Shown here: positions 15,934 to 28,373 of the stretch, one piece after another
Numbering within the stretch: the stretch's first letter is position 1
How the letters are laid out: every line of letters starts with the position of its first letter
DNA from: Lachnospiraceae bacterium
GTDB lineage: Bacteria > Bacillota > Clostridia > Lachnospirales > Lachnospiraceae
Length of the DNA stretch: 43,779 bases
Direction: 5' to 3'
NCBI GenBank assembly: GCA_016283275.1
Contig: JAEEMP010000100.1
Location: forward strand, 1 to 43,779
Position numbers and translations under genes: made by a program
Notes under the pieces: generated by a model
Seen by the model: only the letters and a program-made list of their open reading frames with translations
Told to the model about the DNA's origin: nothing
The model's database searches: none

Positions 15934-17262
15934 ATGAGTAAAGTTGTGAAATTCGGCGGAAGTTCTCTTGCCAGCGCCGAGCAGTTTAAAAAGGTCGGAG
16001 ACATCATAAAGGCAGACCGAGAAAGAAGATATGTGGTGCCTTCGGCTCCGGGAAAGAGATTTTCGAAGGATACAAAAGTAACGGATATGTTATATTCCTG
16101 TTACGCTACCGCTACCGGAAAGAACGGTCCCGAAAAGATGGTAGGCGAGCTTAACGATATAAAGGCCAGATATACCGAGATCATCACAGGCCTTAAACTC
16201 AAGCTTTCCCTTGATGAAGAGTTTACAAAGATCGCAGAGGATTTCCTTAATAAGGCAGGCCGCGATTATGCCGCATCACGAGGCGAATACTTAAACGGTA
16301 AGGTAATGGCCGCATTTTTGGGCTGGGACTTCATTGATTCAGCCGAAGTCATAAAGTTTAAGGAAAACGGTGAATTTGATTCGGAGAAGACCAACGAGAT
16401 CCTTTCAAAACGATTAAAGGAATCCGTGCATGCGGTCATTCCCGGATTTTACGGTTCACTTCCCGACGGTACGATAAAGACATTTTCAAGAGGCGGTTCC
16501 GATATAACCGGTTCGATCGTCGCAAGAGCCTGCAAGGCAGATGTATACGAAAACTGGACTGATGTTTCGGGTTTTCTGATTGCGGATCCGAGGATCATCG
16601 ATAAACCCGAAGTCATAGAGACGATCACATATAAAGAACTTCGCGAGCTTTCATACATGGGAGCCGGCGTTCTTCATGAAGATTCGATATTCCCGGTAAG
16701 GAGCGAGGGCATTCCGATCAACATAAGAAATACCAATTCCCCCGAAGACGGCGGTACATGGATCGTGGAATCCACCTGTCAGAAGTCGAAATATACCATT
16801 ACCGGTATTGCGGGAAAGAAGGGCTTCTGCGCGATCAATATTGAAAAAGACATGATGAACTCCGAGATCGGTTTCGGTCGTAAAGTCCTTCAGGCATTTG
16901 AAGACAACGGAATATCGTTCGAGCATATGCCTTCGGGAATCGATACAATGACGATCTTTGTGCATCAGGATGAGTTCATGAATAAGGAGCAGCAGGTCGT
17001 TGCTGCGATCCACAGGCTTGCCGATCCCGATACCATAGATATTGAGGCGGATCTTGCGCTCATAGCGGTCGTAGGCCGCGGCATGAAATCCACGCGTGGT
17101 ACCGCAGGCCGTATCTTCTCTGCTCTTGCGCATGCCAATGTAAACGTCAAGATGATCGATCAGGGTTCAAGCGAGTTGAACATCATCATCGGTGTTGCAA
17201 ATGAAGATTTTGAAACAGCCATCAAGGCAATATACAATATATTTGTAATTGCAAGACTTTAA
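15934..17262 (+). CDS. lysC: Aspartate kinase
   Basis: 442 residues. Phosphorylates aspartate, the first step to lysine, threonine and methionine. The N-terminal nucleotide-binding motif is VVKFGGSSLAS, and the kinase domain includes FSRGGSDITGSIVARA and YENWTDVSGFLIADPRI. A C-terminal tandem ACT region (about 295-442), with MNSEIGFGRKVLQAFEDNGI and GMKSTRGTAGRIFSALAHAN, binds feedback effectors. It is single-function, not fused to Hom, but linked to it in one operon. The stop is followed at once by repeat element copy A, whose first hairpin serves as its terminator. Confidence 0.94.
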   Translation: MSKVVKFGGSSLASAEQFKKVGDIIKADRERRYVVPSAPGKRFSKDTKVTDMLYSCYATATGKNGPEKMVGELNDIKARYTEIITGLKLKLSLDEEFTKIAEDFLNKAGRDYAASRGEYLNGKVMAAFLGWDFIDSAEVIKFKENGEFDSEKTNEILSKRLKESVHAVIPGFYGSLPDGTIKTFSRGGSDITGSIVARACKADVYENWTDVSGFLIADPRIIDKPEVIETITYKELRELSYMGAGVLHEDSIFPVRSEGIPINIRNTNSPEDGGTWIVESTCQKSKYTITGIAGKKGFCAINIEKDMMNSEIGFGRKVLQAFEDNGISFEHMPSGIDTMTIFVHQDEFMNKEQQVVAAIHRLADPDTIDIEADLALIAVVGRGMKSTRGTAGRIFSALAHANVNVKMIDQGSSELNIIIGVANEDFETAIKAIYNIFVIARL

Positions 17263-17444
17263 TATTTTGGGCTACATTATATAGCCGGTCGGATTATCCG
17301 ACCGGCTTTTTGCTTTATAGGAAATTTCTTCGAAATTTCCTATAAAGCAAAAAATGCTCCGCAGGGTGCGCACAAGCGCGAAATGTAGCAATTGCTTACG
17401 CAACCGCGCTTGGCGCGAGCGTATCGCAACCGATACGCTTTTTT
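17263..17444 (+). repeat. Composite intergenic hairpin element, copy A
   Basis: Fills most of the 277-nt gap after lysC. Order: TATTTTGG box; terminator stem AGCCGGTCGG/CCGACCGGCT (17283-17292 with 17298-17307) plus T-run; a perfect 22-bp hairpin with 3-nt loop (17307-17328 with 17332-17353) whose base reuses the T-run; a 63-nt core (17356-17418) with TGCGCACAAGCGCGA and CTTGGCGCGA; a second terminator stem AGCGTATCG/CGATACGCT (17418-17426 with 17431-17439), loop CAAC, then six T. A second copy lies at 28141-28312. The remaining roughly 95 nt to the next start is AT-rich with no clear promoter. Confidence 0.9.
17283..17311 (+). terminator. Intrinsic terminator of lysC (part of repeat copy A)
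   Basis: A 10-bp GC-rich stem with ATTAT loop followed by five T. Confidence 0.88.
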
Positions 17445-17539
17445 AATATAGCAAAAAACACAACTTATAGTAGCAATAGCGCGTATTATGATGTAAAATA
17501 TACTATGTATGGGGTTGTTTAGGTTAAGTTAGGAAAGTT

Positions 17540-26560: not shown

Positions 26561-28135
26561 ATGGATAAATTATTATCTACTATGGCTATAGCAGCCGTGG
26601 GACTCAACTCGGTGATCACCATCGTGGTTGTAGTCGCAATAGCACTTTTGATTCTCATAATCGCAACGGGTTACGTAAAGGCTCCCCCGGATAAAGCATT
26701 TATCATTTCCGGTCTTAAGAAGGATTCAAAGATCTTAATTGGTAGAGCCGGTATCAAGCTTCCTTTCTTTGAAAGAAAAGATACGCTGGTACTTAAACAG
26801 ATAAGTATCGATATCAAGACAAACGGTTATGTGCCCACACTTGATTTCATCGGTGTAGACATTGACGCCGTAGCAAAGGTCAGAGTTAAGACCGATCCGG
26901 ACGGCATCAAGATCGCGATGAAGAACTTCCTTAACATGGATGAAGCAAGGATAATCGCAGCCCTTACCGATTCATTACAGGGTAACATGCGTGAGATCAT
27001 CGGTACCGTTAAATTAAAGGAATTAAACACGGACCGTAAGAAATTCGGTGATGAGGTTCAGGAAAAAGCACAAAAGGATATGAATGCCTTAGGTATCGAG
27101 ATCATATCCTGTAACATCCAGAAGATCGAAGACGAAAAAGGCTTGATCATTGCATTAGGTCAGGACAATATGTCGCAGATCCAGAAGGATGCTTCGATAG
27201 CAAAAGCTCAGGCCGATAAGGACGTGGCAATTGCAGAGGCAGAAGCCAGAAGACTTGCCAATGAGGCTCAGGTTAAGGCAGAGACCGAAATTGCATCCAA
27301 GCAGAACGAATTAAGGATCAAACAGGCAGAACTTAAGCGCGAATCCGATATCAAGCAGGCTGAAGCCGATGCCGCATACGAGATCCAGCAGCAGGAACAG
27401 CGTAAGACGATCGAGATCACGACAGCTAATGCCAACATTGCGCGTCAGGAACGTGAGATCGAGTTAAAGAAAAAGGATGTTGAGGTTACCGAGCAGACAC
27501 TCGAAGCCGACATCAAGAAACGTGCGGAGGCTGAAAAGTTCGCACGTCAGCAGAAGGCTGAAGCAGAGCTCTTTGAGCGTCAGCGTAAGGCAGAAGCCGA
27601 GAAGTTCGAAAAAGAAAAGTCAGCAGAAGCAGCCAAGATCAAGGCAGCCGCAGACCTCTTCGCAAAACAGCAGGAAGCCGAAGGTATCCGTGCCGTGGGT
27701 GAAGCCGAAGCAAAGGCGATCGAAGCCAAAGGTTTAGCAGAAGCCGAAGCACTTGAAAAGAAGGCGGAAGCCATGAAGAAATACGGACAGGCAGCCATGA
27801 TCGAAATGATCGTAAAGGCTCTTCCCGATATGGCGAGCGCTATCGCAAAGCCTCTTGAAAATATCGATAAGGTTACCATCATTGACAGCGGAAACGGTGA
27901 AGGCGGCGTAGGAAGTATGGGAGCGTATGTGCCCAATGTTCTCGCCAAGACCATGGAAACGGTGAAAGAAGTGACCGGACTTGATATCGTAGACATCATG
28001 AAGGCTCAGACCTATGATGCAAAAGTCAACAGAAATGTAAACATTACAGGTCTTGAAGGCAATGAGGATGTTAAAAAGGCCGTTGCAACGCAGGCAGTTT
28101 TAAAAGCTGCGGACGATAAGCCTGAAAGCAAGTAA
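26561..28135 (+). CDS. floT: Flotillin-family SPFH membrane protein
   Basis: 524 residues. One N-terminal membrane helix (about 18-40), an SPFH/PHB domain (about 42-205), then a long Ala/Glu/Lys-rich coiled coil (about 205-405) with EAEA-type repeats, and a C-terminal oligomerisation tail. Length and order match the FloT/YuaG type (about 510 residues) rather than the short FloA type. Flotillins organise membrane microdomains. No NfeD-type partner lies next to it. The RBS is GAGGAGGG. The stop is followed by repeat element copy B, which supplies the terminator. A second SPFH protein lies at 3352-4635. Confidence 0.92.
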   Translation: MDKLLSTMAIAAVGLNSVITIVVVVAIALLILIIATGYVKAPPDKAFIISGLKKDSKILIGRAGIKLPFFERKDTLVLKQISIDIKTNGYVPTLDFIGVDIDAVAKVRVKTDPDGIKIAMKNFLNMDEARIIAALTDSLQGNMREIIGTVKLKELNTDRKKFGDEVQEKAQKDMNALGIEIISCNIQKIEDEKGLIIALGQDNMSQIQKDASIAKAQADKDVAIAEAEARRLANEAQVKAETEIASKQNELRIKQAELKRESDIKQAEADAAYEIQQQEQRKTIEITTANANIARQEREIELKKKDVEVTEQTLEADIKKRAEAEKFARQQKAEAELFERQRKAEAEKFEKEKSAEAAKIKAAADLFAKQQEAEGIRAVGEAEAKAIEAKGLAEAEALEKKAEAMKKYGQAAMIEMIVKALPDMASAIAKPLENIDKVTIIDSGNGEGGVGSMGAYVPNVLAKTMETVKEVTGLDIVDIMKAQTYDAKVNRNVNITGLEGNEDVKKAVATQAVLKAADDKPESK

Positions 28136-28140
28136 AATAA

Positions 28141-28312
28141 ATATTTTGGCCGTCGGGTACAAACCCGGCGGTCTTTTTGATTTACAGGTAATTTCTCCGA
28201 AATTGCCTGTAAATCAAAAAGCGCTCCGCGAGGATGCGCACAAGCGCGAGATGAAGATGTTGCTGCCGCAACCGCACTTGGCGCGAGCGTATCGCAAGCG
28301 ATACGCCTTTTT
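28141..28312 (+). repeat. Composite intergenic hairpin element, copy B
   Basis: Same order as copy A: ATATTTTGG box (28141-28149); terminator stem GGCCGTCGGGT/ACCCGGCGGTC (28148-28158 with 28163-28173) plus five T; a 22-bp hairpin with 3-nt loop (28174-28195 with 28199-28220); core (28223-28286); stem GCGTATCG/CGATACGC (28287-28294 with 28299-28306), loop CAAG, then T-run. By eye about 54 of 64 core positions match copy A with one indel. All three positions that differ in the long stem keep pairing. Confidence 0.9.
28148..28178 (+). terminator. Intrinsic terminator of the flotillin gene (part of repeat copy B)
   Basis: An 11-bp stem with two G-U pairs, loop ACAA, followed by five T. Confidence 0.85.
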
Positions 28313-28373
28313 ATATCAGTTTCCTATTGCTCTACAATAACTTGTATATGTTATTTAATTTATAATCAATATA

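Follow-up and report, generated by a model that had tools for sequence, protein, structure and literature searches.

What is the composite repeat that follows the aspartokinase gene lysC in this Lachnospiraceae DNA, and why does a second copy of it follow a flotillin-like gene? In the window, by which we mean the whole analysed stretch of 43,779 nt, the first-pass annotation had described two copies, A (17263-17444) and B (28136-28312), sharing the order stop codon, terminator, long hairpin, core and last stem, and this order was confirmed. That the long hairpin is built on the terminator's own T-run can be seen at base level in both copies, and each ends with a last stem of GCGTATCG/CGATACGC followed by a T-run. 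The first terminator stems are, as had been stated, unrelated between the copies, while the two have the tip of the hairpin, the core and the last stem in common. The ATATTTTGG box, counted earlier as a part of the repeat, was found in only 2 of 177 copies, A and B themselves, and is thus no part of the element. The features are as follows.

15934..17262, + strand: aspartokinase (lysC) gene with AA_kinase and ACT domains, upstream of copy A
17284..17311, + strand: host terminator of lysC (stem 17284-17306, T-run 17307-17311), the landing site, outside the element
17307..17353, + strand: left-end (LE) hairpin of copy A, with its left arm (17307-17328) on the T-run of the terminator, a loop (17329-17331) and a right arm with A-run foot (17332-17353)
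17356..17417, + strand: conserved core of copy A (GCTCCGC...GGCGCG; R1 match 17356-17445, 95.4 bits)
17418..17444, + strand: right-end (RE) hairpin and T-run of copy A (stem 17418-17426/17431-17439)
26561..28135, + strand: flotillin-like gene with Band_7 and Flot domains, upstream of copy B
28149..28178, + strand: terminator of the flotillin gene, belonging to the host and serving copy B as its landing site
28174..28220, + strand: LE hairpin of copy B (arms 28174-28195 and 28199-28220)
28223..28285, + strand: conserved core of copy B (R1 match 28223-28313, 96 bits)
28286..28312, + strand: RE hairpin with T-run of copy B

The whole element has a length of about 130-140 nt and consists of an A/T LE hairpin on a T-run, a conserved core and a covarying RE hairpin. 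The LE hairpin comprises about 22 bp, its left arm beginning on the terminator T-run and its right arm ending in an A-run. Copies A and B are 84% identical over 149 nt (E 1.3e-39), and their LE hairpins have folding energies of -25.8 and -25.9 kcal/mol, respectively, with 0 of 200 shuffles as good. The core plus last stem of copy A also folds better than all shuffles (0/200 as good), whereas that of copy B is matched by 13 of 200 shuffles and shows no clear excess. Since its stem differs between the copies, and since 13 relatives have no element at lysC, the first terminator is regarded as the landing site and not as a part of the element.

The first-pass annotation allowed for a single chance duplication should only two copies exist. 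The search of the full genome and of related genomes that it proposed gave further copies in both: the window's genome (2.46 Mb in 130 contigs, 85.78% complete) holds six full copies and several hairpin-only and last-stem-only remnants, and a DNA match was obtained in 16 of the 60 genomes searched, own genome included. The covariance model, also proposed there, was built from 29 cores and finds the core across the family, in 112 of 397 family genomes and 100 of 334 genera (E<=1e-4). In an order-wide sample 16 of 295 genomes matched the model at E<=1e-6, and matches outside Lachnospiraceae were confined to four genomes from one genus of one other family. Strict filters were applied in these surveys and at most 10 or 14 candidates were scored per genome, so that copy numbers are lower bounds. 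Six copies in the own genome and matches throughout the family, in many genera, exclude a chance duplication.

Among the loci fetched, genomes G690 and G567 have 33 and 32 distinct pattern-matched places, and near-identical copies in unrelated flanks occur in G433, G213, G144, G336, G567 and G690. A scan of named sequences gave at least 120 matching stretches, which among the titles listed are mostly Lachnospiraceae or unclassified clostridial MAGs; carriers among the matches listed include [Eubacterium] cellulosolvens, Butyrivibrio, Clostridium fessum, Mediterraneibacter and a Roseburia MAG. Pattern matches in unrelated genomes, for example at loci L187, L199, L202, L209, L217 and L245, do not represent a full element and were excluded from the copy collection as stray. 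Locus L204, on a contig titled Anaerolineaceae bacterium MAG4, holds a clear copy, which may reflect bin contamination or transfer. The plasmids searched gave no match and the viral contigs searched 0 exact matches; three partial matches covering 39-46% of the query were obtained in phages, in records of uncultured human faecal phages, one of them being MT835512.1 24864-24924.

With Rfam 15 at gathering threshold, 0 families were found in the window and only tRNA and RNase P RNA in 15 element loci, and the matches at permissive threshold were weak and all below gathering scores. The element is thus absent from Rfam at gathering threshold, and also from the literature found in our search, which was limited to open-licence PMC papers, so that a description of such a repeat may exist elsewhere in print.

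Copies of the element come and go at orthologous sites. The lysC site was matched in 16 genomes, of which two have the element and 13 have none, the contig ending before the site in one. At the flotillin site, where 7 of 9 matching genomes were examined, G000 has the copy, five have none in the stretch inspected and G005 has an unrelated copy with other hairpins. The rplL site is filled in G008 and has a short stretch instead in G000, between flanks that are 95% and 89% identical; this empty site is nearly clean but not letter-clean at the junction, which makes the exact cut points uncertain. The prfB site has the element in G567, and it is absent in 28 of 28 other species whose locus was fetched. 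Similarly, the element at the mgsA site of G690 has no counterpart in the inspected stretch of the relatives G608 and G490. The element is in this sense a marker of recent genome change. Behind lysC in G009 (L303) there is no element; a different long inverted repeat with ends near GCGCCATGTGT/ACACATGGCGC, possibly another insertion, was observed there.

The target of the element is, by preference, the position directly behind the T-run of intrinsic terminators. The collection comprised 213 copies distinct by flank, from which 177 were kept (LE stem >=12 bp, <=3 mismatches) and 36 dropped for having no clear LE stem; 4 of 218 copies were left out because the upstream flank was too short. The left boundary is constant, with a T-run of at least 4 in 0.86 of copies (n=177) compared to 0.06 of random positions (n=450). 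The upstream 45 nt reached a folding energy of <=-12 kcal/mol in 0.81 of copies (n=176), compared to 0.14 for the remaining T-runs within these loci (n=824) and 0.12 at random positions (n=450). An upstream ORF is nearby in 137 of the 158 copies with enough flank, and the element lies behind the 3' end of this ORF in 112 of the 137, at a median distance of 65 nt from the stop and mostly in the orientation of the upstream gene. Predicted ORFs of >=80 aa, which may not be genes, overlap the element in 42 of the 158 copies, and L070, L074, L130 and L424 are exceptions found at coding ends or imperfect T-runs. In the complete genome G448 the GC skew of 20 sampled stretches places the origin between 1.9 and 2.05 Mb, and 10 of the 11 clearly placed copies among the matches listed run with replication, while three further copies at 1.97-2.01 Mb fall in the sampling gap around the origin. 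This orientation is compatible with insertion into the lagging strand, and also with gene orientation alone.

The reading that we favour, at a probability of roughly 0.77, is that of a non-autonomous miniature mobile element of Lachnospiraceae, which depends on functions supplied in trans. Insertion would take place directly behind the T-run of an intrinsic terminator, mostly along the direction of the upstream gene, and would be carried out by an enzyme encoded elsewhere. This enzyme would recognise the two folded ends, most simply as single-stranded DNA in the manner of HUH/Y1-like enzymes, and the A-run foot of the LE hairpin may pair with the terminator T-run at insertion. A short-range template switch at the palindrome, after or during insertion, would often rewrite the foot so that it matches the host sequence around it. 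We propose that a site behind a terminator disturbs little, and that copies are tolerated by the host for this reason.

The foot of the LE hairpin matches the landing site, as seen in young copies with a common tip (21 in G567 and 30 in G690). The host side is unable to pair with the master foot in five G567 and eight G690 copies, and the copy's own right arm pairs with its host side in 3/5 and 6/8 of these, respectively (9/13 in total), a degree of matching reached by 0 of 2000 shuffles in each genome. In the other 4 of the 13 deviating copies the foot does not match, and in L424, which deviates further out and lies outside the 13-copy count, it does. What this demonstrates is a joint difference of the two arms, the innermost foot positions being assignable to either host or element. 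The foot is also more variable than the core: 4 of 147 foot sites and 15 of 1848 core sites are changed in G567 (Fisher p 0.046, about 3.4x), and 7 of 126 and 23 of 1584 in G690 (Fisher p 0.005, about 3.8x), where 18 of the 30 copies were near consensus and 12, with a core too far from it, were left out. When the nine changed feet are compared with their own flanks, six pair at 7/7 positions, two at 6/7 and one at 5/7.

Guide-target pairing is established for IS200/IS605, and the A-rich foot could likewise be a guide that chooses the target, with mutated guides picking the sites that match them. The foot/site match in 9 of the 13 deviating young copies is what such a guide would give, and an AAAAG foot common to L512, L521, L530 and L532 is compatible with its inheritance. 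However, this foot pairs incompletely with its own site in L521 (5/7) and L532 (6/7), and a guide that acts first predicts matching, not the 3.4- to 3.8-fold excess of foot over core changes, which is predicted by host-templated correction. On balance we consider such a guide unlikely.

Correction from the host also has a known mechanism at hand, since template switching that maintains hairpins by rewriting one arm from the other, known as quasipalindrome correction (PMC8794818, PMC8604942), is sufficient for the rewriting of the foot. The element differs in that one of its arms borders or includes the host target, so that the palindrome absorbs its landing site. Shared sites with hairpins that differ in sequence and are still paired, in G004, G014 and G000 and also in G004 and G010, point the same way. 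That insertion invariably copies the right arm from the host is ruled out by young copies in G433, G213 and G144 and one in G020 (L378), which keep a fixed foot at non-matching sites. Guiding and rewriting could also be combined in one cycle, in which the foot picks a T-run and is then rewritten from the landing sequence by fold-back copying, a self-updating landing guide that we regard as rather unlikely. If true, the guide that a copy takes along would have the last site of that copy as its template, and terminators would be docking structures for a structure-guided mode of transposition. In any case the host-matching feet offer natural replicates for the origin and upkeep of palindromes, be it by template switching, selection or guided targeting, and the question is testable because copies occur in isolates.

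In the stretches examined, neither a transposase nor any other gene lies between the ends or next to them, and an LE and RE set far apart, as in an autonomous partner, was found in none of the at least 120 stretches listed. Y1_Tnp genes are present in 9 of the 12 genomes checked, with no element ends beside them at the 14 loci scanned of 23 listed, and three element-bearing genomes of genus g1, all incomplete MAGs, gave no Y1 transposase gene. A parent IS sharing the ends of the element was seen neither at the 14 Y1 loci nor in the stretches listed. In the G567 subfamily, 12 young copies have no excess of words shared between left and right flanks that would indicate target duplication, and the best terminal inverted repeat reached 10/16 compared to a shuffled mean of 8.2 and maximum of 12; the terminal inverted repeats and target-site duplication of DDE-type MITEs are thus lacking in this subfamily. 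From the missing inverted repeats and duplication, together with the absence of REP tags, Rfam family, gene and Y1 flank, the repeat is classed as a miniature non-autonomous element with no enzyme assigned here. Apparent direct repeats around G020 copies were rejected as target-site duplications, as they look like older LE remnants or tandem arrays. An LE-like motif lies behind 11 of 177 copies and in 33 of 3166 random windows. Tandem arrays are present at L088 and L089 in G020, and LE-like pieces directly behind newer copies were seen in the right flanks of L425, L157 and L164, as if the T-run had been reused.

The first-pass annotation had suggested a dispersed REP-like element downstream of genes, and this stands as far as copy number, presence/absence and position (112/137 behind a 3' end) are concerned. 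REP/REPIN sequences, mobilised by RAYT (TnpA-REP), are short, dispersed, intergenic, palindromic and non-autonomous (PMC8266576; PMC3116915). The present element is likewise short, dispersed, intergenic, palindromic and non-autonomous, and its movement, too, presumably occurs in trans with single strands in folded form. It differs in that the two hairpins flanking its conserved core, which has about 60 nt, are unlike each other, and in landing behind terminators. A REP in the strict sense is not indicated: the GTAG/CGTC tag, counted in G567 only, was found 0 times on either strand of the young master, and no RAYT gene flanked by the repeats was found, 0 of 14 Y1 loci scanned bearing element ends. 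CGTC is present in the LE loop, not in the foot, of G433 and G213 copies.

In anatomy the element resembles the MITEs derived from IS200/IS605, also called PATEs: there is a hairpin near each end and a T-rich site at the left end, and no terminal inverted repeat or target duplication was seen in the G567 subfamily. However, the foot that pairs is located on the 3' side of the LE hairpin, as an extension of it, and the guide of IS608 on the 5' side of its hairpin. In target choice it resembles the group IIC introns, and membership in neither group is established. The insertion sites of bacterial group IIC introns are immediately downstream of rho-independent terminators (PMC8919778), and the element, too, inserts directly behind a terminator. 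They differ from the element, which at about 135 nt has no room for an intron-encoded reverse transcriptase and gave no group II match in Rfam at gathering threshold. BOX, RUP and other repeats of Gram-positive bacteria (PMC3049150) are likewise small and interspersed. The element described here was detected in 112 of the 397 genomes sampled from a family that is a major one in gut and rumen, with more than 30 copies in some, and as the safe harbour described for group IIC introns is likewise the terminator, it would be a second case of terminator-homing.

The target shared with these introns also raises the prospect of a retroposon, in which a reverse transcriptase like that of group IIC introns places an RNA copy behind terminators. 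The element RNA would end in a U-run, and the A-run foot would pair with the T-run loosely in the manner of an EBS-IBS contact, and both, like the insertion of group IIC introns immediately after rho-independent terminators, would fit this. Against it, group II introns gave no Rfam match at gathering threshold in the window or the 15 element loci, and about 135 nt leave no room for a group II ribozyme. We consider a retroposon improbable.

Both ends of the element covary. In the RE stem of the 29 cores 7 of 9 pairs are changed on both sides; the number of such pairs was reached by 40 of 500 shuffles, while both-side-changed cells and the covariation score exceed all 500. In the LE arms of G020 (28 of 30 copies used) pairing within the copy amounts to 21-26 of 28 per position compared to 10-24 with arms swapped, with an excess at 12 of 13 positions and none at the outermost. 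The LE arms of genus g1 (13 of 15 copies used) have 155 of 163 positions paired within the copy, where 101 are expected by swapping. Little or no covariation of the arms beyond expectation was found in G433 and G213, nearly all copies being alike in arms and foot, and in G213 the base next to the T-run is unpaired in 6 of 8. For the core, local hairpins have 94.2% of cells paired and a long-range fold 90.7%, and since core pairs hardly vary these alternatives are inseparable.

Such folds could also suggest a structured small RNA or 3'-UTR regulatory RNA, produced by readthrough of the first terminator and consisting of LE hairpin, core and a second terminator. The strong LE fold, the conserved core letters with the covarying RE stem, the resemblance of the last hairpin to an intrinsic terminator and the orientation, mostly that of the upstream gene, are in line with this. 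However, covarying hairpins are also expected of folded DNA ends, and the patchy presence at orthologous sites, the dozens of near-identical copies in some genomes, the absence of an Rfam family at gathering threshold in the window and 15 element loci, and the core fold of copy B, matched by 13 of 200 shuffles, all argue against an RNA function as the explanation, which we find quite improbable. A mobile element may still be transcribed, and the mobile and RNA readings are not exclusive. Ordinary paired terminators would account for two terminator-like ends behind genes, but not, as the first-pass annotation had already held of simple terminators, for the conserved core, copy number and presence/absence, and together with a single chance duplication, which the copy number has already refuted, they are hardly credible.

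Some variation in the make-up of the mobile element was also observed. At a site shared by G004:C54 and G010:C62 the LE sequences differ and both are well paired, though G010 is without core, and the LE hairpin sequence likewise differs between G008:C188 and G000:C101 at a site common to relatives. Several copies (L205, L244, L271, L282 and L195) have a different RE-like hairpin immediately in front of them, GTCCGC-TTGC-GGAC plus TTTGTTC or close to it, which suggests a composite of two subfamilies moving as one unit; these five loci come from [Eubacterium] cellulosolvens LD2006, from Eubacterium sp. RUI459 and from untitled records. L512-L515 in G690 and L069 and L071 in G004 have a core enlarged by about 50 nt, resembling an added outer stem, with the extra segment placed in the loop between GCGCAC (or GTGC) and CGCGCG. 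A second subclass in G690 (the second copy of L486, L537, L538, L539 and L541) has nearly the same LE and another core and RE (GAGTCGCGAGCGACTC). At L486 in G690 an RNase P RNA gene (1576-2056) is situated between element copies at 1370-1506 and 2087-2219.
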